Notes under the pieces: model-generated | The model's database searches: none | Told to the model about the DNA's origin: nothing | The model's input: the letters and a program-made list of their open reading frames with translations, nothing else | Program-made: the position numbers and the translations under genes | Shown: positions 8,450 to 64,000 of the stretch, piece by piece | Position numbering within the stretch: position 1 is the stretch's first letter | How the letters are laid out: each line of letters opens with the position of its first letter | Virus record (IMG/VR): IMGVR_UViG_3300032240_001151 | Span: 1 to 64,000 of that record | Reading direction: 5' to 3' (one strand) | Origin: a virus | Length of the DNA: 64,000 nucleotides

Positions 8450-9067
8450 ATGAAGCTTATTGACATCCTTACGGATTTATTGAAAGAAGAAAGTGGTAAT
8501 GTATTCTTTCTTTTAAAGCCAACAGACATTTTAGATGCCTTAGTAGAAGATTTCTATACTAATACTCCCAGTATGCAGAAATTGATAAGTAGAGGTATTT
8601 CTCCTGTTGATATTTCTAATGCCATGGATAATCTTTTAGGACTTACATTTTCAGGGACGGATAGTGCTTGGAAGGAACTAGAGTCTGAGGCAAATGCCTC
8701 TAAAAGCGAATTAGCTGCTGCTAAAAGGGATGTAGATTCTTTTGTTGGTACTCTTAAAAAAGATGTTCCTGCTATCTCTAATGTCTTTAAAGCGGTTTAT
8801 GCTGCTTATGATAAGGGAGATGAGAGTCTTATGACTAAGTTGTCTCCTCAGTACATAGATACCTATTTGAAATACTATACGTCAGACGTAGTTAATAAAA
8901 AGACTAATATTAGGAGTTCAGAGGACTATAAAAACCTTATTGGTGCTTTGAAAGATTTAACAACAAAAAACGAAGAGTGGAGTCAGAAATACAAAAATAG
9001 CATAGATTGCAATAATCCGAAAGGCTTCTCTCAAAGAGCGCATTGCGCAGGAAGGAAAAAACATTAA
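8450..9067 (+). CDS. putative head-targeted protein with Cys/His C-terminal motif
   Basis: Start chosen at ATG 8450, after an A8 tract; an in-frame ATG at 8418 would only add translated leader. The N-terminus (MKLIDILTDLLKE) belongs to a peptide family shared by about thirteen proteins here and ends in L-x-E, as in T4 capsid-targeting sequences cut by the prohead protease. The middle is helical. The C-terminus carries NPKGFSQRAHCAGRKK, a Cys/His/basic motif recurrent on phage proteins of unknown role. A packaged internal head protein is inferred. Confidence 0.55.
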   Translation: MKLIDILTDLLKEESGNVFFLLKPTDILDALVEDFYTNTPSMQKLISRGISPVDISNAMDNLLGLTFSGTDSAWKELESEANASKSELAAAKRDVDSFVGTLKKDVPAISNVFKAVYAAYDKGDESLMTKLSPQYIDTYLKYYTSDVVNKKTNIRSSEDYKNLIGALKDLTTKNEEWSQKYKNSIDCNNPKGFSQRAHCAGRKKH

Positions 9068-9085
9068 AATACAAATACAGGAAAA

Positions 9086-9403
9086 ATGATCAATTTTATA
9101 AAACTGTTAACGGAAGCTACAAAAAATTTTGAATCTTTTGCTAAAAATCGTTTAGCCGGTGCAGAAAAAATAATAGCTAATGCAAAGGAAAAAGGCGGAG
9201 ATGCTTTACTTACATATAGGCACTTTAAAGTAAAACCAGCTTACTATAAAAAAGCTATAAATGGCAAATTTGATATAGAGGCTGCTAAAAAGGAATTTGA
9301 AGAAACTTATAAGAAGATATCATTAAAAATGACTCAAACGGAGTTTCAGCGTGAAGTTGGACGTTTAGAGGTATTAGGAGAGTTGATAATAAAAAACAAA
9401 TAA
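9086..9403 (+). CDS. small putative head-targeted protein
   Basis: This 105-aa, Lys-rich helical protein begins MINFIKLLTEATK, with L8-T-E10 as a possible prohead-protease site. It directly follows the similarly headed gene at 8450. No other domain is seen, and the cargo role is inferred from the N-terminus alone. Confidence 0.5.
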   Translation: MINFIKLLTEATKNFESFAKNRLAGAEKIIANAKEKGGDALLTYRHFKVKPAYYKKAINGKFDIEAAKKEFEETYKKISLKMTQTEFQREVGRLEVLGELIIKNK

Positions 9404-9547
9404 ATGGCAAACGCAGCACCCAAGAAGAAGCCGATGAAGTCCCATAGGTCCGGCAAGAAGACAAAGAAGAGGATTGATCAAAACCATCAGATCCTTAGGA
9501 ATTTTGTGAGTCCAATACAAAATATCGTTGATAAAAGTGGAGTCTAA
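9404..9547 (+). CDS. 47-aa basic protein
   Basis: ATG 9404 to TAA 9545-9547. The N-terminal half is Lys/Arg/Pro-rich (PKKKPMKSHRSGKKTKKR), likely nucleic-acid binding or disordered. It starts one base after the preceding stop and overlaps the next gene's start region. Confidence 0.5.
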   Translation: MANAAPKKKPMKSHRSGKKTKKRIDQNHQILRNFVSPIQNIVDKSGV

Positions 9548-10235
9548 ACTATCTATTGTCATCCCTTGTAAGAATGAGAACTATGTGTTGATTGAGACTT
9601 TGCATTGTCTCATTAAACAGAAGGGTATTGAAGGGGTTTCTATTATCGTAGCAGATTGTTCTACGGACAATACCAGATCTTTGGTAGAATTGTTCAGTAA
9701 GTTGTCTAAACTTAATTTGGTGTTTACGGAGGGCGGTTTGCCGGCCATAGCCCGTAATAACGGGGCTAAGTTAGTAAAAACTCCTTATGTGTTGTTTTTG
9801 GATGCGGATACCCATATATACAATCCTAATTTGATTAGTGATTGTTTAGATCTGTGTATATCGGGATATTATGATTTAGTTACCTGTAAGTTTACTACAG
9901 AGAAGCCCTATAATTATGTTTATAGGGTTTTTGATTTTGTGCAGTGGGTTAGTTCTAAAACACAGCCTTTTTGCTTAGGCGGTTTTATGTTGTTTAAATT
10001 AGAAGCTTTTAAAACCCTTAATGGATTCAATGAAGAAGATAAAATTGCTGAGGATTATCATCTCAGTTCGAAAGTTAAACCTAGAAGGTTTAAGGTGTCA
10101 AACTATTTCGTGTATACTCCAAGTAGAAGATTTAGTAAGAAAGGTATACGGTATATGATATCCCTGGCATGTAATGCCTGGGTTAACAGGCATAACGATG
10201 ACTGGTTTAAAAAAGACTACAACTATTGGAAATGA
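9528..10235 (+). CDS. family 2 glycosyltransferase
   Basis: A GT-A fold sugar transferase. LSIVIPCKNE (residues 8-17) opens the nucleotide-binding fold, Asp43 follows in VADCSTDN, and the metal-binding DAD is at 92-94 (VLFLDADTH). The family adds a sugar from a nucleotide-sugar donor to glycans or lipids. No Met start is available; TTG 9528 or GTG 9537 would serve, both overlapping the previous gene. It overlaps the phosphoesterase start by ATGA, so the pair is coupled and may modify host lipopolysaccharide or a virion glycan. Confidence 0.85.
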   Translation: MIKVESKLSIVIPCKNENYVLIETLHCLIKQKGIEGVSIIVADCSTDNTRSLVELFSKLSKLNLVFTEGGLPAIARNNGAKLVKTPYVLFLDADTHIYNPNLISDCLDLCISGYYDLVTCKFTTEKPYNYVYRVFDFVQWVSSKTQPFCLGGFMLFKLEAFKTLNGFNEEDKIAEDYHLSSKVKPRRFKVSNYFVYTPSRRFSKKGIRYMISLACNAWVNRHNDDWFKKDYNYWK

Positions 10236-10978
10236 ACAACTACAAGGCTATTATTGTTTCTGACCTGCATTTAGGGACGAAGGACTCTAAATGTGATGAG
10301 TTCTTAGAGTTTATAGATAAGCATCCTACGGATCTGCTGATCCTCAACGGAGACATAGTTGATGCGTGGGCTATCAACAGAGGCTCTAAGTGGAAAAAAC
10401 AGCATACCAAGGTCATAGGCAAGATCCTGAAACTATCCAATAAAACCCAGGTTGTATGGATTCGTGGGAACCACGATGAATTCATAACTGAGTTTATAGG
10501 GAATAGCTTTGGAGGGGTAGAGTTTAGAGAAGACTACACCATCCGATACCAGGAGTGGATTGAATACGATAACTGGCAGAATAGATGCTATTACGTCTTC
10601 CACGGAGACGTTATAGACATATTCATTACAAAGTATAAGTGGCTATCCAAAATAGGCTCTATAGGCTACGATTTAGCCTTATGGCTTAATAGGGTGTATA
10701 ACAACTATAGAGCTTGGCGTAAGCTCCCATACCAGAGTATCTCCCAGAAGATCAAGGAAGGCGTAAAGAAGGCTGTTTCTTACGTTAATGACTTTGAGGT
10801 TACTGCCATTAAGATGGCCGAGAAAAAGGGCTGTAATGGCGTTATATGCGGTCATATACACCAACCTAAGGATAGGATGATTGACGGTAAGCGATATGTC
10901 AATAGCGGTGACTGGGTTGAGAACATGACCGCTATACTTGTTGATCATAAAGGCAAGCTTTCTATTTATAAAAAATAA
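10232..10978 (+). CDS. metallophosphoesterase, LpxH-like
   Basis: A calcineurin-type phosphoesterase with all motifs present: D11-L-H13, G40-D41, G79-N80-H81-D82, H124-G-D126 and G207-H-I-H210. The overall layout, including the helical insert after the HGD motif, resembles UDP-2,3-diacylglucosamine pyrophosphatases (LpxH) of lipid A synthesis, but specificity cannot be read from sequence. ATG 10232 overlaps the stop of the glycosyltransferase gene; a TTG two codons upstream is less likely. Envelope modification is a plausible joint role. Confidence 0.82.
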   Translation: MNNYKAIIVSDLHLGTKDSKCDEFLEFIDKHPTDLLILNGDIVDAWAINRGSKWKKQHTKVIGKILKLSNKTQVVWIRGNHDEFITEFIGNSFGGVEFREDYTIRYQEWIEYDNWQNRCYYVFHGDVIDIFITKYKWLSKIGSIGYDLALWLNRVYNNYRAWRKLPYQSISQKIKEGVKKAVSYVNDFEVTAIKMAEKKGCNGVICGHIHQPKDRMIDGKRYVNSGDWVENMTAILVDHKGKLSIYKK

Positions 10979-10982
10979 ATGT

Positions 10983-11114: not shown

Positions 11115-11166
11115 CTGTATATATAAAATATATTAGGTGTGGTTCGCGCGACCTGGCGGTTTTGCT

Positions 11167-11175
11167 ATATTTATA
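11167..11175 (+). promoter_or_regulatory. late-promoter-like motif
   Basis: ATATTTATA, 17 bases before ATG 11193 of the lipoprotein gene. The GC-rich TTCGCGCGACC stretch lies just upstream. Confidence 0.5.
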
Positions 11176-11192
11176 TGTATAAAAATTATTTT

Positions 11193-11483: not shown

Positions 11484-11484
11484 A

Positions 11485-12123
11485 ATGATTAAGCTACTAG
11501 ATTTATTTAAAGAGTCTCTAAAAGAAGAGACCAGTATCTTAAAAGAAGTTGGGGAGAATACCTATTCTTTTAGTGATCCGGAAATAGAGGTTATTAGCCC
11601 TAGTAAGAACTTTGTGATTTATACCTTTAAGACTAAAAAGAAAAAGGATGAAGATGGGAAAGAGATAGTGGGTACGGAAACAGAGTATGAAGTTACTTTC
11701 CAGTCTACTTACTTTAAGAATAGTCCAGACTTTAAATGGGAGACGGATATCTCTTTTGATCCTATATCTAAAGAAGATGATGAGGATGTTATGGCTTACT
11801 CCTTTGATAAGCCTGAAGTTGGAGAGACTAATGAATTTGATGCAGCTGCTGTGTTGTTTACTGTTGCTAAGATCATTCTTGCTTTCATAGAAGAGTTTAA
11901 GCCTGAGTCTTTATCCTACAGCGGTATTGTTTCCGGCAAGGAAACGCCAGGAGCTTCGGTGATGACTAAGAGAGATCGTATTTATGATATGATGGTGCAG
12001 TCTATGATTAGTAAGGCTCCAGGGTATAGTTTTAAAAGACAAGGGTTTAACATGACAATTTTCTATAAAGGGGAACTTCCTGTACCAGGACATAATAAAA
12101 TCTTTGATTACCCCAATTCTTAA
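11485..12123 (+). CDS. putative head-targeted protein, 212 aa
   Basis: The N-terminus MIKLLDLFKESLKEE has L12-K-E14 as the likely cleavage site and is followed by an alpha/beta domain (strands around NFVIYTFKTKKK and EYEVTFQST, and a long amphipathic helix near residues 118-140). No known domain is recognised. It starts one base after the lipoprotein stop. Packaging into the head is an inference from the shared leader peptide. Confidence 0.52.
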   Translation: MIKLLDLFKESLKEETSILKEVGENTYSFSDPEIEVISPSKNFVIYTFKTKKKKDEDGKEIVGTETEYEVTFQSTYFKNSPDFKWETDISFDPISKEDDEDVMAYSFDKPEVGETNEFDAAAVLFTVAKIILAFIEEFKPESLSYSGIVSGKETPGASVMTKRDRIYDMMVQSMISKAPGYSFKRQGFNMTIFYKGELPVPGHNKIFDYPNS

Positions 12124-12131: not shown

Positions 12132-12147
12132 CTATATAACTAATAAA

Positions 12148-12567
12148 ATGAAAAACGAACAGAAATTTAAACAAAGAATAGCAGAGATTGCTGCTAAGAT
12201 TGCTGAGGGCGCTTACGGAGAAGAGGATGAAGTTAAAAAACCTAAACAAGAGGAAGACATGGAAGAAGCTGAACAAAAGTCAGACGGTGAAAAAGTAACT
12301 ACTATATTATCTAGGATATCTAGCCTTAGAACTCCTATGAATCTTGTAGATCAGGCTTCAGAGTTTACAGATCTTTTAAGAGGTTTGTTACCTATGATGC
12401 CTAAGCTTACCCCTCAAAGAGCTATACAAGGTATGAACACCCTTAGAAATGAATTGGCTAAAACTGCAGCTAATGCAAATTCAAATGAGCCTAAGTCAGG
12501 TTCTGAAGGTGGTGATGAAGATCTTCCTCAACTCCAAGAAGCGTTCAATCGCATTAACAGAAAGTAA
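12148..12567 (+). CDS. acidic helical protein, possible head-core or cargo protein
   Basis: This 139-aa protein is very charged (EEDEVKKPKQEEDMEEAEQK at 25-44) and helical, resembling scaffolding or core proteins in composition. Its first residues (MKNEQKFKQRIAE) end in I-A-E, compatible with the prohead-protease rule. It is the last gene before a strong terminator. No family is recognised. Confidence 0.5.
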   Translation: MKNEQKFKQRIAEIAAKIAEGAYGEEDEVKKPKQEEDMEEAEQKSDGEKVTTILSRISSLRTPMNLVDQASEFTDLLRGLLPMMPKLTPQRAIQGMNTLRNELAKTAANANSNEPKSGSEGGDEDLPQLQEAFNRINRK

Positions 12568-24134: not shown

Positions 24135-24560
24135 ATGACACAAGATCAATTGATACTGTTTAAAGAACTAATCAAAGAAGCAGTTAAATCAGCTGTTAAA
24201 GATGCTGTTAAAGAAGAATTAGAGGCTAGTTTTAAAAAGGATTTAAAAGAAGTAAAACAACTTTTGGCTAAATCCATAAAGGAAGCTAGAGAAGTGAATT
24301 CACAACCAAGACCTCAACAAGTCTATTCAAACCCAGAAGACTTTAAAACAAAGTTAAGAGAAGCAGTTGGGTCTGATTTTAACAGAAGACAGTCAAGTCC
24401 TTATACAAGCCAAGCACAGCAGACAGTAATGCCAAATATTAGTGCTGATGCCGGGATGAATATGTCTATGAATGGAACACTTCCAAATATAGATGCGCCA
24501 ATTCCTTTTATAAATAAAGGGTCTATAGCTTGGAAAGAGATGAGAGAAAAATTAGGATAG
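24135..24560 (+). CDS. helical virion-associated protein, 141 aa
   Basis: The first 60 residues are amphipathic helix rich in Lys, Glu and Ala (LIKEAVKSAVKDAVKEELE), with I13-K-E15 matching the (I/L)-x-E pattern. The rest is Pro/Gln/Met-rich and probably unfolded. It lies one base before gp25. Function unknown. Confidence 0.5.
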   Translation: MTQDQLILFKELIKEAVKSAVKDAVKEELEASFKKDLKEVKQLLAKSIKEAREVNSQPRPQQVYSNPEDFKTKLREAVGSDFNRRQSSPYTSQAQQTVMPNISADAGMNMSMNGTLPNIDAPIPFINKGSIAWKEMREKLG

Positions 24561-49322: not shown

Positions 49323-49685
49323 ATGGAACAGTTTGGATTATTTATCGGAACACTAATGCAGTCTAGAAATCAGGCGCACATCTATCATTTACAAACAAAG
49401 TCTTTTGCAGAACATAAAGCATTGCAAGAGTATTATGAAGGAATTATAGATCATATTGACGGTCTTGTTGAGACTTTTCAAGGAAGATATGGTATACTTT
49501 ATGGATACCAAATGGGAGGAACTATTAAAGAAGATGGAGGTACAATATTATATTTTCAAGCTCTTTGTAAATTTGTTGAAGGTATAAGATCTTCAATACC
49601 TCAAGATTCGTATCTTCAGAATCAAGTAGATGAAGTAGTAGCTCTTATAGAATCAACTAAATACAAATTAGTAAATCTTAAATAA
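49323..49685 (+). CDS. ferritin-like helical phage protein (DUF5856-like)
   Basis: This 120-aa protein appears as a four-helix bundle with QAHIYHLQTKSFAEHKALQEYYEGIIDHIDGL near residues 17-48, where His and Glu spacing recalls Dps/ferritin-like proteins. I associate it with a phage family of unknown function. It overlaps the next gene start by one base (TAATG). Confidence 0.55.
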   Translation: MEQFGLFIGTLMQSRNQAHIYHLQTKSFAEHKALQEYYEGIIDHIDGLVETFQGRYGILYGYQMGGTIKEDGGTILYFQALCKFVEGIRSSIPQDSYLQNQVDEVVALIESTKYKLVNLK

Positions 49686-50278
49686 TGAAACTAAGAGACA
49701 TATTCCTAGAAGCATTTGATGATTGTGGGTGTTCCGGAGAAAAACTTTCTGAAGGACTGCAGTATCACGTAGACAACGAAAGGCCTCTCACAGAGAATAT
49801 CTATAGGCCTTTTTCTAAAAAGTATTTTGATCTGTTTAAAGAAGCTCGTGAACTTTATAAAAAAGGTCTTTTAGTTATTACTGAAGAAGAGGAGAAATTA
49901 CTAGCTAATACAGATCTAGGAGAGTATGGATATTATAATGGAGTTAAAGTTCCGTTAGATTTCCCAATGAGCTTTGAACAAATTAATGAAATTAAGCACC
50001 AGGGGAAAGAAGTTCAATTAAATCACCCACATCGTGGAGGGGCTAAGAAATTTTACGTGTATGTAAGAAAACCAGGTGGAGGAATTAAAAAAGTATCTTT
50101 TGGGGATACCACAGGTTTAAAAGCTAAGATCAACGACCCTAAGGCCCGTAAATCTTTTGCAGCAAGACATAAATGTGCACAAGCTAAGGATAAAACCATG
50201 GCTAACTACTGGAGCTGCAGACTACCAAGATATGCCAAAATGTTAGGAATTAAGTCAAGTTTTACAGGATATTGGTAG
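49685..50278 (+). CDS. putative head-targeted protein with Cys-rich C-terminal motif
   Basis: The leader MKLRDIFLEAF belongs to the shared N-terminal peptide family, here F-L-E rather than L-x-E. A CGCSGE knuckle follows. The C-terminus (ARHKCAQAKDK, then YWSCRLPRYAKMLGI, ~158-190) is a Cys/aromatic motif recurring on phage proteins. A CGCSGEKL-like N-terminal tag and basic tail suggest a packaged DNA-associated protein; not proven. Confidence 0.52.
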   Translation: MKLRDIFLEAFDDCGCSGEKLSEGLQYHVDNERPLTENIYRPFSKKYFDLFKEARELYKKGLLVITEEEEKLLANTDLGEYGYYNGVKVPLDFPMSFEQINEIKHQGKEVQLNHPHRGGAKKFYVYVRKPGGGIKKVSFGDTTGLKAKINDPKARKSFAARHKCAQAKDKTMANYWSCRLPRYAKMLGIKSSFTGYW

Positions 50279-50314: not shown

Positions 50315-53080
50315 ATGGCAAACAAAAACAAAGAGATTCAAGATCTTATTAAAAAAATTTTAAGAGAAGAGCTAAGCAATATAAAAAAAAGTCATGGTTC
50401 GTGGGAATATCAAGTAGGAGAATGGTTTATTAATCATTATCCAGATATAGCAGAAAAAATGGCGAAGCCGTATGATCAGGATTTAGGCCAATATGCTAAA
50501 GAAATAGGCACCAGAGTAATTTTCTTGGCTGCAGCGGCAACAGGAGTATTAGGAGTTGGGGCAATTACGGCTTATGATGCAATTAAAAGAAAACTAAAAG
50601 AAGCACATCTAGACAGCTCAATAATGGGTCTGATACAAGATAAAATGAAAGACCCAAAAGTTGCTCAAATGGTTTTAAATAAAGCAAAACAAATAACAGG
50701 CAAGTCGCCAGAAGAACTAATCAAAGATCTACAAGGATCATTAAAAGAAGGAGAGTGGGAAGAAAAGAATAAACCAGAAACTTCTAAAACTTGGGAAAAG
50801 TTAAAATATGTAATGGGCCAGTTAGGTTCTTACAAGGTTAACGGAAAGATGTTTGGAAAAAAGAAAGAACTAGCCGCAGCAGAAGCAAGAATAGAGGCTA
50901 TTATTAATAAAGAAAGTAATAAGTTTATAAAAGATCTAGACACTCTTATTAAACAAACAAATAAGGAATTTCCAAATAACTTAAAAGCAGCTGATTTTTT
51001 AAGTATTGTTTTAAGCATATCTGCTTGTTATGATTCTATAGTTGATGCTACAAAAAAAGAAAATCTACCTATTGATGCTGCCAATGCTATAATCAATGAT
51101 TTAAGAGAGTATGTTAAATACATTCTAGATGCAAAATTAGCAGCAGCTTACTCAACTGTAGATGAGTCTAAAGATGGAATAACAGAAGAAGAGTATAAAA
51201 ACATAGACGAAGCTTTTGGGTTAAATGAAGACCAAGCCGCAGACGTTAGAGCTCAGTTTGCAGCTAACAGAGCCGCAAGAAGCGGAGAAGAAGATAAAGC
51301 AGACTTTAAGAGTACCAAAATGGACACTCTTAAATCTAATAAACTACCAATGACTTTGTTGGGAGTTGGATCTGCATTAGGAGGATTTAGTTGGTTAGTA
51401 AACACAGAATGGTTTAAACACTTGTTTGATATAATAACTCCTGGGCATTGGACTCAAGACTTAGCTACAGAGTCAAAAGTACTGACCGATATCAAACCTG
51501 GAGAAGGCGTGTATAAATTACTTGGAAGAGTAACACAGCATAAATTAGATGGTAATTCAAGCCCTACCGAATTTGTTAATTCTTTGAAGCAAATTGGTGG
51601 CGGAGATGCTAATAAAGGAGTAGATCTTCTTTGTCAGAAAGGTGGTGTAATGATGAAGCCGGAAGAGGCTTCTAAAGGTCTTCATGAGTTCTTAAAAAAT
51701 CCAAGTAAGTATAAGAACATGAATGACTTGTTTCATGGATCAGCATCGGGAACAGGAAAATTGGTACCTACAAATACTACTTTATATGGTACAATAGCTG
51801 GTAAACAAATGGTTTCAATACTGACTAAAGTTATCCCTAAAGTATTTGTTAGAGGATCTATAAAAACAGGAGCTGGATATGCCATAGCTAAAGGATTAGG
51901 AGCTATATTAGGTCCTATAGGTGTTGGATTGCTTGGAGCGGGGGCTTTGGTTAAAATCATGAGGATTAAAGGTCAAAAAACATCTAGGGCAGCTACTTTA
52001 AATGCACTTTATCAATCTTTAAGAAATATTCCTGGAGGCACTGTAATAGAGCCTGAAGGAGAAGTAGACACTAAAATACAAGTAGAACCCTCTCCAATAA
52101 ACCCAGGTCCTATAGATACTGCAACAGATAAAGGAACAAAAGAAAAAGGTAAAGGAGCTGGGGTATCTGCTAAAGAACCTAAAGGAGATAATGATGATTT
52201 GTACAATACATTAAAGAATGTATTTAAGTATATTGTTAATAGCAGAGATATGCTGGGAACAAGATCTGCAGATAATGTTGGAACTGGAGCAGCTACTAGG
52301 AGAGCTAAAGAAAAAGGAGAAAAACCATCATCCGAGCCTACTAATAAGCCATCTGTAACAGTTCCTGAAGGACCAACAATTAAAAAAGGAAGTGAGTTTA
52401 AAATTACAGGACGTAATGGAAGAACAGCTGCGATTAGAGTAGTTAGTGTAAAAAAAGATGGTACAGTAGAAGTAGAGAGAACAGATGGGGGTAAAATTAA
52501 AAGTCCTATGATAGCTAAGGATACATTAGTAAAAATGTATAAGTTAGCTCAAAAGAAAACCCTATCAGAAGGTAAATATATAACTGATAATGAAGTTTTA
52601 AATTATTTAGAAAAGAAACTATCTTATGATAAATTAAAATCATTTGAAAATTTAATCAAAAGAATAGAGCAACTTAGAAATAAAATTAGAAACGCAAAAC
52701 AATCAAAAGATAAAGATTTTAATAGATTGGTAGATAAGTTTAAAGCTAATCCAATCATGGCTACTGATTTTCAAAGTTTGTTTGATGTATCGTCAGCCAA
52801 TGAAAAAGATATGGCATCTTTAAAAGCTTTGATAGACGATATTTTTGTAACAGTGTACTCAGGTAAGTTTGGAAGAGGAAACTTGATAGATAAGATGGCA
52901 AGTACTGCTGGAGGAAGTATAAATTCTATAAAAGAAAAGTACTATGGTGCTGATGATCCAAACAAATCTTTTGAAAAAGATGCACAATCAAGAGATAGAT
53001 TAAAAAATAATTTAATAAACTTTTTACAAGACGCTATTAGGTTGTTTCAGCATATGTACAGTAGAAGAAGAAACGGATAA
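50315..53080 (+). CDS. large putative internal virion protein, 921 aa
   Basis: The N-terminus (KEIQDLIKKILREEL) resembles the shared leader, with L16-R-E18. Hydrophobic, Gly/Ala-rich segments lie near residues 70-90 (VIFLAAAATGVLGVGAI) and ~505-545 (SIKTGAGYAIAKGLGAILG...GLLGAGALV), like membrane-active channels of injected virion proteins. Long charged helices fill the rest, and residues ~690-740 form a small beta domain (EFKITGRNGRTAAIRVVSV). No enzyme motif is seen. An ejected, membrane-inserting protein is inferred. Confidence 0.5.
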   Translation: MANKNKEIQDLIKKILREELSNIKKSHGSWEYQVGEWFINHYPDIAEKMAKPYDQDLGQYAKEIGTRVIFLAAAATGVLGVGAITAYDAIKRKLKEAHLDSSIMGLIQDKMKDPKVAQMVLNKAKQITGKSPEELIKDLQGSLKEGEWEEKNKPETSKTWEKLKYVMGQLGSYKVNGKMFGKKKELAAAEARIEAIINKESNKFIKDLDTLIKQTNKEFPNNLKAADFLSIVLSISACYDSIVDATKKENLPIDAANAIINDLREYVKYILDAKLAAAYSTVDESKDGITEEEYKNIDEAFGLNEDQAADVRAQFAANRAARSGEEDKADFKSTKMDTLKSNKLPMTLLGVGSALGGFSWLVNTEWFKHLFDIITPGHWTQDLATESKVLTDIKPGEGVYKLLGRVTQHKLDGNSSPTEFVNSLKQIGGGDANKGVDLLCQKGGVMMKPEEASKGLHEFLKNPSKYKNMNDLFHGSASGTGKLVPTNTTLYGTIAGKQMVSILTKVIPKVFVRGSIKTGAGYAIAKGLGAILGPIGVGLLGAGALVKIMRIKGQKTSRAATLNALYQSLRNIPGGTVIEPEGEVDTKIQVEPSPINPGPIDTATDKGTKEKGKGAGVSAKEPKGDNDDLYNTLKNVFKYIVNSRDMLGTRSADNVGTGAATRRAKEKGEKPSSEPTNKPSVTVPEGPTIKKGSEFKITGRNGRTAAIRVVSVKKDGTVEVERTDGGKIKSPMIAKDTLVKMYKLAQKKTLSEGKYITDNEVLNYLEKKLSYDKLKSFENLIKRIEQLRNKIRNAKQSKDKDFNRLVDKFKANPIMATDFQSLFDVSSANEKDMASLKALIDDIFVTVYSGKFGRGNLIDKMASTAGGSINSIKEKYYGADDPNKSFEKDAQSRDRLKNNLINFLQDAIRLFQHMYSRRRNG

Positions 53081-53954: not shown

Positions 53955-54587
53955 ATGAAACTCTCTGAAATTTTTAAAGAAGCTTTATTGGAGGCTAAAA
54001 AGAAAAAACCGTCTGCTGGATTGTCAAAAAAAGAAAAATCAGCAGTAGCAAAGAAAGCTAAAGCAGGTAAAGATATAGGTAAAAAAGGAAAAGGATTTGA
54101 AAAATTAGCATCTAAAGCAGCTAAGGAATATGGTTCCAAAGAAAAAGGAGAAAAAGTAGCAGCTGCTGCTATGTGGAAAAACATTAAAAGAGTTAAAGAA
54201 GGCGCTGATGGAGAAGATCATGAAGTTTCTATGGCTAAAAATAGTCTAGAATCTATAATTAAATCTGCTGTAGATCTTGCAAAGAAACTAGGAGATGATG
54301 AAAGAAATATCCCAGGATGGATCCAAGATCATATTACTAATGCTGAAAATTACATAGATCAAGCAGCTCAAGGTTTTCATGAGCTAGGAGGACACGGTGA
54401 AGATGAAGAAGGTGGAGAAGATCAAGGTATGATTGAACCTGTAGATGAAAAAAAACTTACAAAAGCTGAAAAGGCTAAGAAGGAAGATATAATAAAAGCA
54501 ATGGCTAAGAAAGGTGGCGGTAAAGATAAAATGGGTCCAAAACAATATGCAATAGCTACTTCACAAGCTATAAAATCTGCGGAATAG
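53955..54587 (+). CDS. putative head-targeted basic protein, 210 aa
   Basis: The leader MKLSEIFKEALLEA contains L11-L-E13. A strongly basic region follows (KKKKPSAGLSKKEKSAVAKKAKAGKDIGKKGKGFEK), then AAKEYGSKEKGEKVAAAAMWKN, a lysine/alanine phage motif I have seen on small structural proteins, and a C-terminal GPKQYAIATSQAIKSAE. Composition fits a DNA-condensing internal head protein. Confidence 0.52.
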   Translation: MKLSEIFKEALLEAKKKKPSAGLSKKEKSAVAKKAKAGKDIGKKGKGFEKLASKAAKEYGSKEKGEKVAAAAMWKNIKRVKEGADGEDHEVSMAKNSLESIIKSAVDLAKKLGDDERNIPGWIQDHITNAENYIDQAAQGFHELGGHGEDEEGGEDQGMIEPVDEKKLTKAEKAKKEDIIKAMAKKGGGKDKMGPKQYAIATSQAIKSAE

Positions 54588-55156
54588 TGAAACTACTAGA
54601 CATACTAAAAGAGTTAGCAAAAGAAGAAAGTCCCAAAGTAAAATGTAAAAATTGCGGATGGGAGTGGGAAGTAAGTGAAGGAGGGGAAGATCCTAACATA
54701 TGTCATAAGTGTGGAGAGGATATTAGATACCAAGTTATAACTGAAAAGTTATGTCCAAAGGGAAGGGCATATGCTGATAGAAGAATAGCTGCTGGAGAAA
54801 AACACTCTGCATATTTAATGGGAAGAGCTGTTCAAGTGTGTAACGGAGGAATAGGAAAAAAGAAAAAAGTAAAAAAAGAAGAAGCGGAAGAGCTAGAAGA
54901 GAGTTTACACAGCTGGTTTAATGAAGAAGAGTGGGTACGTATAGATACGGAAGGAAATATAACAGGTCCTTGTGGATCTATGAAAAAAGGTAAAGCAACT
55001 ACAAGATGCCTCCCTAAAGCAAAAGCAGAAAAGTTATCTAAAGCAGAAAGAGCTGCTACAGCAAAAAAGAAAGTGGCAGGGTCAAAAAAAGGAAAACAGT
55101 TTGTGTCAAATACAAAAAAAGCTAAGGTATCTTTTAAAAATAATAAGAGAAAGTAA
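54587..55156 (+). CDS. putative head-targeted zinc-ribbon protein, 189 aa
   Basis: Start is GTG 54587, sharing its G with the preceding TAG stop. The leader MKLLDILKELAKEE has L7-K-E9. Next is a zinc ribbon (CKNCGWEWEV, then CHKCGED, ~residues 20-47), a second Cys motif (LCPKGRAYADRRIAAGEKHS), and a C-terminal block with LHSWF, GPCGSMKKG and CLPKAKAEKLSKAE, which resembles a DUF found at phage protein ends, then a Lys tail. Nucleic-acid binding in the head is inferred. Confidence 0.55.
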   Translation: MKLLDILKELAKEESPKVKCKNCGWEWEVSEGGEDPNICHKCGEDIRYQVITEKLCPKGRAYADRRIAAGEKHSAYLMGRAVQVCNGGIGKKKKVKKEEAEELEESLHSWFNEEEWVRIDTEGNITGPCGSMKKGKATTRCLPKAKAEKLSKAERAATAKKKVAGSKKGKQFVSNTKKAKVSFKNNKRK

Positions 55157-55767
55157 TGAATGGAGAGCTTATAATAGCCATAGTTACGGCTGTAACTACT
55201 TCAGTAGTGGGACCAATTGTAGTGCATTATGTACAACAGTGGACAGAAAAAAAGAAAAAAGATCCTCTAGCAGAGTCTATTGAAGTCAATCAAATGATAA
55301 CAAGTAAACTTGAACAAGTAAAGGTTGATAATAAGTGCGATAGAGTTTGGATGATTCAATTTCATAACGGAGGACATTTTTATCCTACAGGAAAATCAAT
55401 ACAAAAGTTTAGTATTGTATATGAAATATCTACAACTAATATCGTACAATGCCAAGGGCAGTTTCAGAATATACCGGTTAGTCTTTTTAGTAAATCTATA
55501 AATGCATTACATAAGGGAAGCACTATATCAATACCAGATACTTCTATAGCTGATAAACAATTTGAAGGATTTACATCAGTAGTTCCTACAGCTAATGTAA
55601 AAAGTACTTATGTATTCCCTCTTTATAATATTAAAAATGAGTTTATAGCTATAGTAGGTATAGATTATACCGAAAAGAAAAAAGAGCTAAATGAAAAACA
55701 ATTAGTAGATATAGATTTAGAGTTATCAACTATAGGTGGAGTACTGCATAATTATTTAACTGTATGA
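55156..55767 (+). CDS. membrane-anchored GAF-like domain protein
   Basis: An N-terminal transmembrane helix (LIIAIVTAVTTSVVGPIVVHYV, 5-26) precedes a GAF-like sensor domain (~50-200): RVWMIQFHNGGHFYPTGKS, then TYVFPLYNIKNEFIAIVGIDY. GAF domains bind small ligands or regulate enzymes. Phages do carry this membrane-GAF form, with unknown function. It overlaps neighbours on both sides by short stretches. Confidence 0.6.
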   Translation: MNGELIIAIVTAVTTSVVGPIVVHYVQQWTEKKKKDPLAESIEVNQMITSKLEQVKVDNKCDRVWMIQFHNGGHFYPTGKSIQKFSIVYEISTTNIVQCQGQFQNIPVSLFSKSINALHKGSTISIPDTSIADKQFEGFTSVVPTANVKSTYVFPLYNIKNEFIAIVGIDYTEKKKELNEKQLVDIDLELSTIGGVLHNYLTV

Positions 55768-56030
55768 TAAAGATAGTAGATTTACTAAAAGAAGAGTATG
55801 GGGGCGGTGAGTATGTACTACCGAACAACCATAAAGCTGGCATGAAAGTTCCTAAGGGAGGGGCTTGCTGTGCTAATTGTCTATATTGGCATGAGGGTAC
55901 AGAAAAAGAACCTGGTCACTGCGGTAACGAACTTTATGAAAAATGGAGTGGTAAAAAAACAATACCACAAGATCCTTTAGAATATTGTACTGATTGGTGG
56001 GAACCAAAGAAAGCACAAAAGGCCAAGTAG
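55764..56030 (+). CDS. small Cys-rich, head-targeted-type protein (HiPIP-like)
   Basis: The leader MIKIVDLLKEEYGGG carries L8-K-E10. The rest resembles high-potential iron-sulfur proteins: GGACCANCLYW, GHCGNELYEKWSG and EYCTDWWEP give four suitably spaced Cys. An iron-sulfur or zinc site is possible. It is coupled by ATGA to the GAF gene. Confidence 0.58.
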   Translation: MIKIVDLLKEEYGGGEYVLPNNHKAGMKVPKGGACCANCLYWHEGTEKEPGHCGNELYEKWSGKKTIPQDPLEYCTDWWEPKKAQKAK

Positions 56031-56046: not shown

Positions 56047-56613
56047 ATGAAACTCAATTATTATCAAATATTTAGGGATAGATTAGTTGAAGAAGCTGAG
56101 ATTACTCCTGTAAAAACAGAGTCAAATCTAGAAAAGATACTATCTAAGTCCCCTAAAGTGACATCTGTATTGTTAAAACTTTTGACAACTCAAAAAAGTA
56201 AGAACGATACATCCCTAGATCAAATAAGGGATACAGTATCGGATATAAGATGTATAGCATATAAACCTACTACTTTTAGAGTCGTAATACCTAATGGCAA
56301 TTATTTTGATATAAAATATGATCCAACACCAGTAGAATTAAACTACGCAGAGGATTTTAATCCAGCAGACTCTTTTCAAGTGTTGGTAAGCGGTAAAAAA
56401 TACAGCATAGCCAATAAGTCAGAATATGAACAAGCTTTAGATTACATTAACATTCTTTTAAAGACTAAGCCAATAGCCAAGGAACCAGAACCAGGAGAAA
56501 CACCAGCCCCAGCTGGAGAAACACCTCCTGAAGGCGAAACTCCCCCAGAAGGAGAAGCCCCAGCCGGTGAAACCCCTCCTGAAGAAGAAACCCCAAAAGA
56601 ACCCGAAGCATAA
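56047..56613 (+). CDS. putative head-targeted protein with Pro/Glu-rich tail
   Basis: The leader MKLNYYQIFRDRLVEEAE (L13-V-E15) is followed by an alpha/beta domain with no recognised motif, and a disordered tail of GETP, PEGE and APAGE repeats (~150-188). It overlaps the metallopeptidase start (TAATG). It is possibly a virion-internal protein. Confidence 0.5.
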   Translation: MKLNYYQIFRDRLVEEAEITPVKTESNLEKILSKSPKVTSVLLKLLTTQKSKNDTSLDQIRDTVSDIRCIAYKPTTFRVVIPNGNYFDIKYDPTPVELNYAEDFNPADSFQVLVSGKKYSIANKSEYEQALDYINILLKTKPIAKEPEPGETPAPAGETPPEGETPPEGEAPAGETPPEEETPKEPEA

Positions 56614-57710: not shown

Positions 57711-59291
57711 ATGTCTGAAGAAAAATCTATAAAAGAGATAATTCGAGAAGAGTATCTCAAGTGTGCTAATGATCCAATATACTTCCTAAAAAAGTTTGTT
57801 TACATACAGACTAGTGAAGGTAGAATGTTATTCAATCCTTATGTATTCCAAGAAAAGTTATTATTTCTTCTTAATAAACACGATAGGACACTTATCCTCA
57901 AGTCAAGACAGCTTGGTATCACTACTCTTACTGCTGCATACGCTTTATGGTTAATGATCTTCAAAAAAGATCAATCTATATTAGCATTAGCCCCTACACA
58001 AGAAAAAGCTCGTAACATTGTAGATAAAGTAAGATTTGCTTACGCAAACTTACCTAGCTGGATTAAAGTGCAGTCTGTAGAGGATAATAAGCTAAGTCTT
58101 ATACTTGCTAACGGGTCTAAGATAAAAGCAGCTTCTGGAGCTTCGGAAAGTGCTAGGGGATACACTGCAAACGTATTAGTATTAGACGAAGCTGCCTTTA
58201 TAGAAAATGCAGAAGATTTATGGGGATCTGCACAACAAACTCTTGCGACTGGAGGTAGAGCTATAGTATTATCTACTCCTAATGGAGTTGGTCAATGGTT
58301 TCATCAACAATGGGTAGGCGCTGAATCTGAAGATAATAATTTTGTACCAGTAAGACTTCCTTGGAATGTCCACCCCGACAGAAATCAAAAATGGAGAGAA
58401 GATCAAGATAAAGAACTTGGTAAGAGGATGGCATCACAGGAGTGTGATTGTAACTTTATTTCCTCTGGAGATACGTATTTTGAGCCGGAAGACTTGGAAT
58501 ACTATACCGAAAGGACTAGAGATGCTATAGAACAAAGAGGTCCCCATAAAGATTATTGGATATGGGAATACCCAGACCCAAACAGGAATTACATGGTAAT
58601 AGTGGACACAGCTAAAGGAGACGGTTCCGATTCATCTGTAATACAAGTAATAGATGTATTCACTGGATCACAAGTAGCTGAGTATAGAGGGGACATGGAT
58701 ACAAAAAGCCTATCTAAATTTGCTGTGGCTATAGCTACGGAGTATAACAGTGCTTTGTTGATTGTAGAGAATACAGGACTAGGTCATGCAACCACTTCTG
58801 ATATACTAGAATTGAATTATAGTAATATATACTATTCCCCCAAAGGAGATACTTTAAACGTATCACAGTACATTACTCAGATGTATGACTATGATACTAG
58901 TAGAATGACTCCAGGATTCACCACGTCTACTAAAACTAGACCAGAAGTATTACTGGCATTTAAGCAGTATGTGAGAGATCATAGCATATCCATAAATTCT
59001 AGGAGGCTACTATCAGAAATGTCTACATTTATATGGAAGAATAGTAAACCACAAGCCCAATCAGGGTATCATGATGACTGTGTAATGGCATACGCTATAG
59101 GAATGTTTCTAAGAGACAGTGCAATCCACTATAAAAATAGAGGTATAGACATGCAAAGGGCGTTATTAAATAACATAACTAAGAGGTCTGGAATAGGACA
59201 AAATAATGCACCAAACCAAAGTCAATTTGACAATCCTTATAATATGAATGTAAATGGCCAGCAAGAAGATATAACCTGGTTAATACGTTAA
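57711..59291 (+). CDS. large terminase subunit, gp17-like
   Basis: This 526-aa packaging motor has an ATPase domain with adenine-binding VFQEK, a Walker A-like KSRQLGIT at 64-71, Walker B VLVLDE with D159-E160, and a STPNG coupling motif. The RNase H-fold nuclease has Asp299 (MVIVDTAKGDGSD), ENTGLG and a late DD pair in YHDDCVMAYA. It pumps and cuts DNA at the portal. The portal gene follows directly, whereas in T4 the sheath and tube genes lie between. Confidence 0.95.
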   Translation: MSEEKSIKEIIREEYLKCANDPIYFLKKFVYIQTSEGRMLFNPYVFQEKLLFLLNKHDRTLILKSRQLGITTLTAAYALWLMIFKKDQSILALAPTQEKARNIVDKVRFAYANLPSWIKVQSVEDNKLSLILANGSKIKAASGASESARGYTANVLVLDEAAFIENAEDLWGSAQQTLATGGRAIVLSTPNGVGQWFHQQWVGAESEDNNFVPVRLPWNVHPDRNQKWREDQDKELGKRMASQECDCNFISSGDTYFEPEDLEYYTERTRDAIEQRGPHKDYWIWEYPDPNRNYMVIVDTAKGDGSDSSVIQVIDVFTGSQVAEYRGDMDTKSLSKFAVAIATEYNSALLIVENTGLGHATTSDILELNYSNIYYSPKGDTLNVSQYITQMYDYDTSRMTPGFTTSTKTRPEVLLAFKQYVRDHSISINSRRLLSEMSTFIWKNSKPQAQSGYHDDCVMAYAIGMFLRDSAIHYKNRGIDMQRALLNNITKRSGIGQNNAPNQSQFDNPYNMNVNGQQEDITWLIR

Positions 59292-59335: not shown

Positions 59336-61192
59336 ATGCCGGTAGATAAGTCACTTTTTCCTCGTTTAAAACGTTTATTCTCCACTGACGTTGTTGTAAG
59401 GAATGTTGGAGGTAAGCAACTGCGTGTAATGGACGTGGAGAGGATTCAATCTTTTGGCCAATTACAGACCAATTCTTTAGTAGACAGGTTCACAAGGCTA
59501 CATAAAGCCGGGCAAAGAATGCAGTTTAACCCAACGTTAAACTACCAGACTTTAAGGTTACAATTATATGCTGATTACGAGGCAATGGATACAGATGGTC
59601 TAGTAGCTTCAGTTTTGGATATACTTTGCGAGGAGGCTACACTGAAAGGAGATACAAACGAAGTATTAAAAATAAGGAGTTCAAACGAAAATATTCAAAA
59701 AATTCTATATAATCTATTTTATCAGGTATTAAACATAGAGTTTAATTTACCTATGTGGATTAGGTCTATGTGTAAATACGGAGATTTCTTTTTGAAATTA
59801 GACATTGCTGAAAAGTTTGGAGTATACAGTGTAAGACCGCTATCTGTATACGATATGATCCGTGAAGAAGGGCAGGATCCAAATAATCCTTCCTATATTA
59901 AGTTTGTTTATGATCCTGTAGCTGTAGCTGGTGGAACTACTGCTACTAAAAATAAAGAATCTTTTGAGAATTTTGAAATAGCCCACTTTAGACTGTTAAC
60001 TGACACTAACTATCTCCCCTTTGGTAGATCATATATAGAACCAGCTAGGAAATACTTTAAACAGTATATTCTTATGATGGATGCAATGTTATTGCATAGG
60101 ATTATGAGGGCTCCTGAAAAGAGGGTATTCTATATAAATGTGGGTAACATTCCTCCTAATGAAGTAAACGCTTTTGTACAACAGACTATAAACGGTATGA
60201 AAAAAACTCCGTTTGTAGATCAACAAACAGGTGATTATAACTTGAAGTTCAATGTACAAAACATGTTGGAGGACTTCTATATTCCTGTTAGACCTGGAGA
60301 CAATACCACTAAGATAGACACTACAAAAGGTCTAGAATATGCAGGTATAGAAGACGTTGAGTTTTTAAGAGATCTTATGTTAGGTTCTATGAAAGTACCT
60401 AAATCTTTCTTGAACTATTCAGATGAACTTAACGGCAAATCAACCATCAGTGCTCTAGACGTAAGGTTTAGCCGTACAGTAGAAAGAATACAAAGAATTA
60501 TTATTAGCGAGTTAGAAAAGATAGCAATTATACATTTGTATGTTCAGGGCTTTGAAGACGCGGATCTTCTTAATTTTAGTCTTGAATTAAACAACCCTTC
60601 TATAATCTATGAACAAGAAAAGATAGCCCTCCTTAAAGAGAAGGTAGATCTTGCTGGAAATATTATGGATAAGAAGTTGTTTTCTTCTGATTGGATTGGA
60701 GATAAGATATTCCAAATGTCTGAAGATCAAATTAATGAACAAAGAGATCTTATTGCTGAAGATGTTAAGAGAACATTTAGATACAATCAGATTGAGAATG
60801 AAGGAAATGATCCTTCTATATCTGGAGAATCTTACGGTACTCCTCATGATCTTGCCTCTGTGTATTCAGATGGGGGAAAGGAAAACCCTAACTTAGACGT
60901 ACCAGATGAGTACGATGAATTTGAAAAAAATCCAGTAGGAAGACCAAAAGAGAAAGCCTCTATATTTAAAACTGATAAGTCGGCTTTTGGAAGGGATCCA
61001 CTAGGTTCTAAAGGTATGAAACCAAGCACTCCTTTGGACAAAACTAGGACAGATAAGGTCAAACCATTTGCAATGGAATCGGCTCTAAAAGGACTAGAAG
61101 GTAAAAGAAAAAAGAAAATTGTTCTGTACGAACAAAAAGATCAAGAATCTGGTCTTTTAGATGAAAGTAACCTTATTAATCACGACATTTAG
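59336..61192 (+). CDS. portal protein, gp20-like
   Basis: This 618-aa protein has the T4-type portal core: DALLHRIMRAPEKRVFYINVGNIPPNEV (~250-280), PFVDQQTGDY...LEDFYIPV, and LRDLMLGSMKVPKSFLNYSDELNGKSTIS. Twelve copies form the ring through which DNA enters and on which the head is built. The C-terminal ~130 residues are charged and disordered (ending ESGLLDESN). Confidence 0.94.
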   Translation: MPVDKSLFPRLKRLFSTDVVVRNVGGKQLRVMDVERIQSFGQLQTNSLVDRFTRLHKAGQRMQFNPTLNYQTLRLQLYADYEAMDTDGLVASVLDILCEEATLKGDTNEVLKIRSSNENIQKILYNLFYQVLNIEFNLPMWIRSMCKYGDFFLKLDIAEKFGVYSVRPLSVYDMIREEGQDPNNPSYIKFVYDPVAVAGGTTATKNKESFENFEIAHFRLLTDTNYLPFGRSYIEPARKYFKQYILMMDAMLLHRIMRAPEKRVFYINVGNIPPNEVNAFVQQTINGMKKTPFVDQQTGDYNLKFNVQNMLEDFYIPVRPGDNTTKIDTTKGLEYAGIEDVEFLRDLMLGSMKVPKSFLNYSDELNGKSTISALDVRFSRTVERIQRIIISELEKIAIIHLYVQGFEDADLLNFSLELNNPSIIYEQEKIALLKEKVDLAGNIMDKKLFSSDWIGDKIFQMSEDQINEQRDLIAEDVKRTFRYNQIENEGNDPSISGESYGTPHDLASVYSDGGKENPNLDVPDEYDEFEKNPVGRPKEKASIFKTDKSAFGRDPLGSKGMKPSTPLDKTRTDKVKPFAMESALKGLEGKRKKKIVLYEQKDQESGLLDESNLINHDI

Positions 61193-61218: not shown

Positions 61219-62061
61219 ATGAAGCTTAAACATAATAAACTTCGGAATACCGGCCTTTTGTTTGAATTGCTTGTTAGGCAAATCACTAGTGATACGCTTA
61301 ATAATAAAGAATCAAAAGCCGTTGATATTTTGAAAAACAACTTTAACAATAACGCTATTGCTAAGGAGTATAAGATATACAAGGCTCTTTTGAACAACAA
61401 AAACCTATCCGAAGCAAAAGCCAATATTGTTATTGAATCCTCTATAGAGGCACATAAAAAGTTGAATAAGAGCTTGTTAAATAGCCAAAAGTACAAGTTA
61501 ATATCTCAAATTAAGGAGAACTATGACATTGAAGAGTTCTTTAAATCTAAGATAGAGAACTATAAAACCTTGGCTTCTGTGTACATGTTGTTTGAAATGT
61601 ACCAGTCTGATAGCATAGATCCTCAAAATGAAGTAAAATATAAGTTTTCCATAATGGAAGACATATGTGCAGGTACTAAAGAGACTAAAAAAGACCCTGT
61701 ATTAGAGGAGTATGAGACTTTTGATAAAGGTACCAAAGCTTTAGTTTACAAATTAATGGTACAAAAATTCAATGAAAAGTACAGTGAGTTTAATAAAAAT
61801 CAAAAAAAGCTATTAAAAGAGTATATAAACAGCATAACAACTCCGGAAACTTTTAAGGAGTATGTAAACGAAGAATTTGACAGGCTTAAAAACAAACTAA
61901 GCACTTTGTCTAAAAAAGTAAATGACGAAGTAAGAAAAATAAAAATTCAAGAGGTTATAAATATAATAAAGCCGGTGTCCCAGCATAAACAAGTTTGTGA
62001 TTTGGACTTAGAAAATCTATTACATTATTACGAATTGGAAAAAGAATTAGAAAATGTCTAA
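61219..62061 (+). CDS. helical head-region protein, 280 aa
   Basis: The start KHNKLRNTGLLFELLVRQITSDTLN is a motif I associate with T4-like phages just after the portal gene. The rest is charged helix with a C-terminal Leu/Glu-rich stretch. In T4 the matching place holds head-core and protease genes; a scaffold or assembly role is inferred. It overlaps the next gene by eight bases. Confidence 0.6.
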   Translation: MKLKHNKLRNTGLLFELLVRQITSDTLNNKESKAVDILKNNFNNNAIAKEYKIYKALLNNKNLSEAKANIVIESSIEAHKKLNKSLLNSQKYKLISQIKENYDIEEFFKSKIENYKTLASVYMLFEMYQSDSIDPQNEVKYKFSIMEDICAGTKETKKDPVLEEYETFDKGTKALVYKLMVQKFNEKYSEFNKNQKKLLKEYINSITTPETFKEYVNEEFDRLKNKLSTLSKKVNDEVRKIKIQEVINIIKPVSQHKQVCDLDLENLLHYYELEKELENV

Positions 62062-62287
62062 AAAAAATGTAAAAGAAATGTCTTCCACAGGTGGAGGAGC
62101 TCCGGCAGCAGATCAAGGGCATGCAAATCCTGGAGATGGTGAAGGTATGGCAACTAAATATGGATTTGGAGGTGCTGGGGGAACAAAGGCTAAAAGAAAA
62201 AAAGGATTGATAAAGAAAAAATTTGCTGAGTCTAAAGATATTGACTTGGCTTTGGAGTATAAAAGATTATTTAAAAAGGAACTATAA
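62054..62287 (+). CDS. small Gly-rich head-region protein, 77 aa
   Basis: A Gly/Ala-rich first half (STGGGAPAADQGHANPGDGEG, then KYGFGGAGGTKAKRKKG) and basic tail, with position and size like the small core proteins gp67/gp68 of T4, although sequence resemblance is not demonstrated. Both ends overlap neighbours. Confidence 0.52.
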   Translation: MSKKNVKEMSSTGGGAPAADQGHANPGDGEGMATKYGFGGAGGTKAKRKKGLIKKKFAESKDIDLALEYKRLFKKEL

Positions 62288-62841
62288 TGACAACACAGCA
62301 ATTATACCAGAAGGTATTGAACGAGCAATTAACTGAATCAGAATTTTTATGGCACGTTCGTAGGAATCCTATGTACAGTGATATGTTGACAAATACGATG
62401 TCATATAAAGATACCGTATCAAAGCTTAAAGGCAAAGGACATATCTTTGACCCAAAAGCTAATTCAGAAATAAAGCAAGGTTTTAACTTTTTTAGCGCAT
62501 TTAAATCATTGCAAGAGTCTCTTACTGAAGGTAAGAAGAATCAGCTAAAAGGTGGTAAAGGTGATAAACTTACAGCCGATGATGTAAACTACTATGAGTT
62601 TACTAAAGGTTGGAAGCATGAGCTAGAGCATACTGATGACATTGACAAAGCTAAAGAAATTGCTATAGATCACCTTGCTGAAGATCCAAACTATTATACT
62701 CGTCTTGAAATGATTGAGTTTAAAGCTAAGAAAAAAAATCGTACCGATCTTCCTATTGAAATTAAAAAGAGTAATTTCAAAGATAAGGACAATCAGATGA
62801 AGAATGCTCCAAAGAAAAAGGCTCCTAAAAAAGCTAAATAA
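62287..62841 (+). CDS. basic head-region protein, 184 aa
   Basis: It begins MTTQQLYQKVLNE, close in shape to T4 internal-protein leaders, with L11-N-E13. Then comes a conserved-looking HVRRNPMYSDML, a YYEFTKGWKHELEHTDDIDKAKEIAIDHLAEDPNYY block (~97-133), which looks like a small phage domain, and a Lys/Ala/Pro tail. Likely a packaged or core protein. Confidence 0.52.
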   Translation: MTTQQLYQKVLNEQLTESEFLWHVRRNPMYSDMLTNTMSYKDTVSKLKGKGHIFDPKANSEIKQGFNFFSAFKSLQESLTEGKKNQLKGGKGDKLTADDVNYYEFTKGWKHELEHTDDIDKAKEIAIDHLAEDPNYYTRLEMIEFKAKKKNRTDLPIEIKKSNFKDKDNQMKNAPKKKAPKKAK

Positions 62842-62843
62842 GA

Positions 62844-64000
62844 ATGAATCTTTACGAAGACATATATAATTTTTTTAACGAAGCTCGTCCTAGAACTGTA
62901 AATAAGGATGTAGAAGATATTAGAAAAGGTCAAGCTATTTACAAAGGAGAAACTCCTAAAGATTTTGAAAAAACTTTTTTAAGAAGGGAAGAACCTAGTC
63001 AAAAAAGTTTTTTAAAGCCACCCTCAGATATAAATCAAAAGTCTTCCTTTAAAAATGGAGCAGTACATAGAATTGTTTTTAGAACTGCATTTAAAGATCA
63101 AAAAAAAGCTTATTTTAGTATATACAGAAAAATATCTGAAAAAGAATATAAGGATCTAAAAAGTAATATTGAAATAAGTGCTACTGTATACCCTTCTGAT
63201 AAAAAAGAGCATTTTGAAGACGTATATTATTTAAATCCAGGAGAAGGAATTAGAAACGAAAAAGATGGGTTTGTACATCTAAACGATGCCCAGATAAAAG
63301 AAATAAAAGAAAAGTATTCTAAATACATGACCGAGTTTAATCCCGTATCTATAGAAGAGATAGCAAAGGGTTTAAAAATTAGGTATTATGAGTTTGATAA
63401 ATTAAAAGCTTTCTGGGATAATAGAATGATAGCTTTTAAAGGTAGTAAAGATAAAGGATCTGCAAAAGCGGCTAGAGATGCAGAAAAGATTGAAGCTTTA
63501 AAAACAGAGATAGAAGATTTTATAGAGTATAATAAAGAAAATGTTATAAAAATTACTGGATTACATGATAAATCTGTAAAACCAGGTATAAGTCCAGAAG
63601 ACAAAAAAGATTATGAAGATCTTAGAAATTCTTTTATTAAATCATATGTAAGCAATCTTAGAAAAATAAGCAAATTAGCAGCTGTTCAAGTATTGACTTC
63701 TTTAGAAGAAAAGTTAAAAGATAGAAGAGATTTATTTGATTTAATAAAGTCTTCTTACGAAGGAAAATCAAAACCTTCTACATCTACTAGCACTGCAAAA
63801 CAAAAAAGCAAGTTAGAAAAACCAGCAAAACCTTCTACAGACAAAGCTAGTTCTATTGAGTCTAAGGGAGGAGAGTTCATGTCTAATCAAAAACACATAG
63901 TAACTCTTAATAGGCTTATAAACGCTTTTTCTGAATCAGAAGATAAAGAAAAAAATGATAGAAAGGAAAGAGAGTATCAGAGAGATCAAATATTTGTATA
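62844..64000 (+). CDS. putative head-core or cargo protein, 3' end cut by window
   Basis: ATG 62844 opens a frame that stays open to the window end (385 codons seen). The leader MNLYEDIYNFFNEARP fits the shared N-terminal peptide family with F-N-E in place of L-x-E. The remainder is Lys/Glu/Ser-rich, largely helical, with a Pro/Ser/Thr low-complexity stretch near residues 310-340. It may be a scaffold or packaged protein; no domain is recognised. Confidence 0.5.
   Translation, partial: MNLYEDIYNFFNEARPRTVNKDVEDIRKGQAIYKGETPKDFEKTFLRREEPSQKSFLKPPSDINQKSSFKNGAVHRIVFRTAFKDQKKAYFSIYRKISEKEYKDLKSNIEISATVYPSDKKEHFEDVYYLNPGEGIRNEKDGFVHLNDAQIKEIKEKYSKYMTEFNPVSIEEIAKGLKIRYYEFDKLKAFWDNRMIAFKGSKDKGSAKAARDAEKIEALKTEIEDFIEYNKENVIKITGLHDKSVKPGISPEDKKDYEDLRNSFIKSYVSNLRKISKLAAVQVLTSLEEKLKDRRDLFDLIKSSYEGKSKPSTSTSTAKQKSKLEKPAKPSTDKASSIESKGGEFMSNQKHIVTLNRLINAFSESEDKEKNDRKEREYQRDQIFV

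Follow-up and report, generated by a model that had tools for sequence, protein, structure and literature searches.

The internal proteins of phage T4 are brought into the core by propeptides of 10-19 residues, and for one of them, IPIII, the first 10 residues suffice for packaging (PMC9026906). Within the IPIII leader, positions 4 and 7 serve targeting and positions 8 and 10 govern processing, and the cleavage by gp21 falls after L/I-x-E (PMC9026906). A review of T4 has suggested that capsid-targeting sequences are perhaps a general packaging route for varied proteins in T4-like phages (PMC9026906). Because proteins injected by a phage are at work before expression of the phage genes begins, they are prime candidates for counteracting host defences. 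In T4, for example, IPI blocks GmrSD, and IPIII is required on E. coli ECOR17 (PMC9391042).

The stretch of DNA analysed here, which we call the window, comprises the first 64,000 bases of a virus record of 90,112 bp that belongs to a T4-type phage and is available as metagenome sequence only. An earlier note on the window had described thirteen genes whose products begin with similar short peptides resembling the T4 propeptide, and all 13 open reading frames have the start sites and N-terminal peptides reported there. As had also been stated, (I/L)-x-E is found in exactly 11 of the 13 leaders, at residues 9-18. In the other two the motif reads FxE, namely in 49685 (FLE-9, but with LSE-23) and in 62844 (FNE-13). 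These genes and their neighbours in the head module are as follows.

8450..9067, + strand: 205-aa protein with leader MKLIDILTDLLKE, in putative cargo island 1; no informative family match
9086..9403, + strand: 105-aa protein with leader MINFIKLLTE; the body also occurs in G002 and immuto, with its own leader in each
11485..12123, + strand: 212-aa protein with leader MIKLLDLFKESLKE; weak DUF6934 match
12148..12567, + strand: 139-aa protein with leader MKNEQKFKQRIAE; one G001 homologue keeps the leader
24135..24560, + strand: doubtful member with a long helical N-terminus, among baseplate genes; immuto and G023 have counterparts at the equivalent position
49685..50278, + strand: leader MKLRDIFLE, a CxC linker, LSE-23 and a body ending in an RHKC...YWSC domain; opens putative cargo island 2
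50315..53080, + strand: 921-aa protein with leader MANKNKEIQDLIKKILRE; no family match
53955..54587, + strand: 210-aa basic protein with leader MKLSEIFKEALLE; its halves are separate ORFs in G023
54587..55156, + strand: leader MKLLDILKELAKE (GTG start codon), zinc-ribbon-like cysteines and a DUF5872-like basic region (DUF5872 at 1e-4, below the cut-off)
55764..56030, + strand: 88-aa cysteine-rich protein with leader MIKIVDLLKE; a leader of varied sequence is present in 7/7 homologues
56047..56613, + strand: 188-aa protein with leader MKLNYYQIFRDRLVE
57711..59291, + strand: large terminase subunit, T4 type
59336..61192, + strand: portal protein, T4 gp20 type (Portal_T4, 2.7e-67)
62054..62287, + strand: 77-aa protein at the position of T4 gp67 (80 aa), a likeness of position only
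62287..62841, + strand: DUF5661 protein with leader MTTQQLYQKVLNE, at the gp67/gp68 position
62844..64000 (to 65864 of the record), + strand: 1006-aa protein with leader MNLYEDIYNFFNE; fused to the 62287 body in G008, G010 and G016

Most of the leader genes form two islands, at 8450-12567 and 49685-56613, and the leader genes are located in or beside the head module. None of the 15 genes of the left arm has a leader under a strict rule. The member at 24135 is doubtful because it belongs to a baseplate operon and its helix continues well past the LxE. It is probably a baseplate protein and probably a long helix, and single members of the set, this one above all, may be chance resemblances.

The earlier note had forecast a prohead protease gene just past 64 kb, and a gene with a Peptidase_S77 match (6.5e-28) indeed lies 1.9 kb beyond the window, at 65876-66484. 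The head module runs from the terminase (57711) and portal (59336) through 61219, 62054, 62287 and 62844 to the protease, an acidic scaffold-like protein with a conserved C-terminal domain (66638) and a gp23 homologue (67784; match 6.2e-74). This is the order of T4, in which gp20 is followed by gp67, gp68, gp21, gp22 and gp23. Homologues of gp17, gp20, gp21 and gp23 all fall within one module, which places the record in the T4 superfamily. The N-terminal segment of the protease itself has (I/L)-x-E ahead of the conserved domain in 17/18 homologues, with site variants that include QLLE-A, KLTE-A, QINE-A and QLNE-A, and the gp23 N-terminus keeps LLE in 16/18. The conservation of these two N-termini fits a T4-like specificity, with the protease cutting both itself and gp23.

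The motif (I/L)-x-E is weak, with a frequency of about 1.2% per position, and a fuller scan rule was used to recognise leaders. The rule calls for E at residues 9-19, I or L two residues earlier, at least four hydrophobic residues spaced no more than four apart, and no P or G; the expectation was taken from internal windows of the same proteins. Across the 90,112-bp record, 13 genes fit the rule against 3.4 expected (Poisson p = 6e-5), and a similar excess is seen in most of the relatives with a record that spans this region. Three control phages, Cellulophaga phi14:2 and Flavobacterium phages 6H and FCL-2, jointly gave 11 against 8.3 expected. Microcystis phage Mel-JY01 and RM378, both of which have S77, were not clearly enriched over the parts that were read.

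Statistics on the original thirteen alone are biased because these were picked for their similarity, so tests on other genes weigh more. Two such tests are available, and in both the leader is enriched. Among families of metagenomic relatives that this phage does not have, 29 leaders were found against 8.1 expected (p ~9e-9). The second test dropped the LxE rule and scored similarity to eight window leaders only; among held-out families absent from this phage, it gave 18/178 in close relatives versus 1/183 in controls (Fisher p = 2e-5). P-values across relatives are optimistic, since the relatives share descent and the tests are not independent. At least a dozen further protein families in relatives start with the same leader. 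The leaders are also amphipathic, with a mean hydrophobic moment of 0.27 versus 0.16 for other N-termini.

The list of thirteen proved to be incomplete. A gene at 71453, just outside the window, belongs to the set as well. It has the leader MVKLVDILIE and lies among neck genes, is conserved in 11 relatives, and 10/11 of its orthologues fit the scan rule.

The description of the bodies as unrelated holds in general, the exceptions being links that arise through fused or split neighbours. The leader behaves as a detachable module. In most relatives, 62287 and 62844 are separate genes with a leader on each. In the three relatives with the fusion, the single ORF has one N-terminal leader, and no second leader was found in the stretch read past the 62287 body. 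Conversely, the two ORFs that correspond to the halves of 53955 in G023 each bear a leader. The 54587 body is found in G014 with its zinc ribbon missing and a leader present (MIKLTEILQDIIAE). In 50315, about 110 residues separate the leader from the conserved body, and this insert is missing in G004 and G010. The body DRCLRIARRKYDKPSAY sits behind MKLKDILLELLDE in G016 and behind MGKVNKAYIENIIKEILSE in immuto, and a variant of it sits behind MIKLTDIAKEILNE in G023. Likewise, DUF5661 is present in the record and in immuto with different leaders. The leader is portable between unrelated bodies, as is characteristic of a T4-type capsid-targeting sequence.

In the 49685 family, 11/13 relatives with S77 have a leader ahead of the body by the scan rule, but in more distant S77 phages the helix is missing and mostly just (I/L)SE remains. 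The protein with the RHKC...YWSC domain begins directly with the body in four phages that have no S77, and in CRP-6 a proline-containing stretch comes first and there is no leader. All five of these phages lack the S77 protease. In an AlphaFold model of 49685 (mean pLDDT 74), the leader forms a short helix, residues 8-18 are disordered and the body folds from residue 23, directly after LSE.

Across homologues, the leader and the position of its LxE persist even as its length and sequence change. When one exact leader spelling was searched as a pattern in the record, there was no match, which indicates that the leader is conserved as protein rather than as DNA. In close pairs, most codon changes within the leader are synonymous (3 and 0 for 53955; 5 and 1 for 71453), a comparison that involves small numbers and a pattern that does not appear in every gene.

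The bodies themselves differ widely. Island content changes among relatives, and one relative's island, L117, has nine leader-type ORFs, several of them unlike those of the window. In relatives, leader-type N-termini occur on recognisable bodies, including an NT5C 5'-nucleotidase (L135), a CTP_transf_like nucleotidyltransferase (L133), DUF5824 and DUF6934. For the leader-bearing bodies of the window, Pfam and PHROGs gave no established function. A fold search with the 49685 model returned no significant match and no solved relative; 50315, 62287 and 62844 had no match among deposited phages, and no relative of 62287 was found in host genomes. The labels ‘membrane-active’, ‘iron-sulfur-like’ and ‘DNA-binding’ that had been attached to some of these proteins drew no confirmation from Pfam, PHROGs or the fold search.

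Several other proteins encountered in the course of this analysis may be recorded here. An ADP-ribosyltransferase-like protein of G002 was set aside, with no support from Pfam, PHROGs or PDB sequences and a single-sequence model of pLDDT 30, as was G014 28215 as a kinase-like protein, for which the same three sources offered no support. Two small leader-bearing proteins of relatives, L070:12715-13833 and L056:8895-9422, recall by eye protein kinases (LGSGTESTVYDF) and ADP-ribosyltransferases (IYHFTS), resemblances with no database support. A leader-bearing 255-aa protein of relative G007 (L083:15420-16187) has an HELVH zinc-protease-like motif and no Pfam match. Beside island 2 lies a conserved, leaderless protein of 143 aa (56613-57044) with an HELIHH metalloprotease-like motif, also with no Pfam match. 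By eye, 48691-49320 is a possible nucleotidyltransferase (GEFAPPTKMHL) with no leader and no Pfam match; what look like its counterparts in L133, Melnitz and Mel-JY01 start with a leader. Three consecutive proteins at 12920-16176 (523, 406 and 147 aa) have another common N-terminal module, KKSLL(S/T)GNKSQVGKKQ(S/T)KSFLQPxSFxSTGISGTL, for which the relatives that were read gave no match, and two of the three carry BspA-type leucine-rich repeats. In the tail region, 39006-44562 forms a glycan cassette with a GlcNAc transferase, a weak GT4-like protein, GT25, GT11 and UDP-galactopyranose mutase.

We favour, with a probability of roughly three in four, the interpretation that the leader is a T4-type capsid-targeting propeptide with a clade-specific sequence, which would direct packaging, be cleaved off, and leave its body to be injected. 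Points against it are that the leaders differ in length and sequence and are hardly closer to the T4 peptide than other N-termini are, that the motif is weak, that distant S77 phages have the 49685 body without the helix, and that Mel-JY01 and RM378 are not clearly enriched in what was read of them. The set of bodies turns over fast among relatives whereas the leader persists, and in this reading it would serve as an address label for exchangeable cargo. The leader would form a short amphipathic helix that docks on the scaffold core during prohead assembly, and the body attached to it would be built into the prohead interior. The S77 protease would then cut after (I/L)-x-E and free the body in the maturing head. 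Most freed bodies would remain with the DNA and enter the next host, and two or three (62287, 62844 and perhaps 71453) would more likely help to build the core or neck. The earlier proposal of T4-like targeting and gp21-type cleavage passes nearly all sequence tests in this form, the exception being a close likeness to the T4 peptide, and what needs revision concerns details of the cargo, 24135, and 62287 and 62844. To regard the islands as a putative injected ‘arsenal’ is reasonable.

An alternative is that the leader does recruit proteins to the prohead, but that the tagged proteins are mainly parts of the head core or other head-building components and are not injected. This idea draws on the location of 62287 and 62844 between portal and protease, and also on the conserved gene at 71453 among the neck genes and on the (I/L)-x-E segments that the protease and gp23 likewise have. 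Because 62287 and 62844 occupy the position of the T4 core proteins gp67 and gp68, they may be head-core parts instead of the injected cargo proposed earlier. For the set as a whole, we regard this alternative as unlikely, because the remaining members turn over rapidly across relatives in a manner unlike structural genes, and because relatives have leader-type N-termini on enzymes such as the 5'-nucleotidase and nucleotidyltransferase.

It is quite improbable that the LxE is incidental and that the leader is an interaction helix with a target other than the head, be it the cell membrane, a chaperone of the host or some complex inside the cell. The amphipathic character of the helix would suit such a role, K and E occur often in the genome, and the motif is weak. 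However, the LxE position and the leader persist despite drift in length and sequence, the leader genes lie in or beside the head module, and bodies are leaderless in phages without S77. Finally, although the set was selected by similarity and a few hits occur in the control phages too, a chance likeness of ordinary helical N-termini picked by eye is scarcely credible and, for the whole set, is refuted by the held-out families, with which the family-level excess agrees.

If the leader is a targeting propeptide, its sequence may differ between clades. Leaders score 16.9 for similarity within the window set and 16.6 within immuto, compared with 13.9 between the two phages and 10-11 for unrelated N-termini, values that make leader dialects for each phage only suggestive because similarity was the basis for choosing the window set and the immuto set was assembled by eye. 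Against the T4 peptide MKTYQEFIAE, read from the T4 record, window leaders score 12.5 and all N-termini of this genome 10.7. The leaders of the Kyanoviridae phage Melnitz form a third type together with T4 IPIII, with a mean score of 20.0. Such a pattern would be expected if each leader fits the scaffold of its own phage. We give an even chance to the broader proposition that clade-specific, scaffold-matched dialects in the T4 superfamily load a fast-changing injected set, that this clade alone tags dozens of unrelated families, and that the leader offers a general way to recognise, from sequence, the proteins that environmental T4-type phages inject. Injected proteins normally are not recognisable from sequence, and the leader would allow them to be listed across uncultured T4-type phages. 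Moreover, the question of which proteins such phages deliver first could then be put to a direct test in Flavobacterium phage immuto, the closest relative in culture.

A literature search that covered few subscription papers returned no account of leaders of this kind from the clade and no virion proteomics for Immutovirus, and a survey of far-T4 genomes makes no mention of prohead proteases or internal proteins. Among described systems, phage P1 offers one parallel, because an N-terminal signal of DarB sends the protein, and likewise a reporter fused to the signal, into the P1 head (PMC9024508). In contrast to the window, which has a shared leader and a scaffold-like protein, P1 has Dar proteins without a common N-terminal consensus by BLAST and no separate scaffold. 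In the giant phage SPN3US, the prohead protease removes N-terminal propeptides from ejection proteins and gp245 after a short motif that ends in E (PMC10052503), but most propeptides there are 111-254 residues long, whereas the window leaders are 9-18 (or 23). Melnitz resembles the window in having neighbouring unrelated proteins with LxE/IxE-type N-termini (MKKFSEIIEA, MQGFKTFLSEA and MKNFKNHIAEE), although its leaders stand nearer to the T4 peptide.

The closest comparison is with T4 itself. Like the propeptides of IPI, IPII, IPIII and Alt, the window leader is short, N-terminal and portable and ends in (I/L)-x-E, and it occurs in a phage with gp17, gp20, gp21 and gp23 homologues on bodies that are diverse and mostly small. 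Targeting in T4 was demonstrated by experiment, and D at position 10 prevents processing there, whereas the window leaders are known from their sequence. What is new relative to T4 is the number of carriers, about a dozen here, the different sequence, with a core of MKLxDILKE in place of MKTYQEFIAE, and the turnover of bodies, which are unrelated to those of T4.
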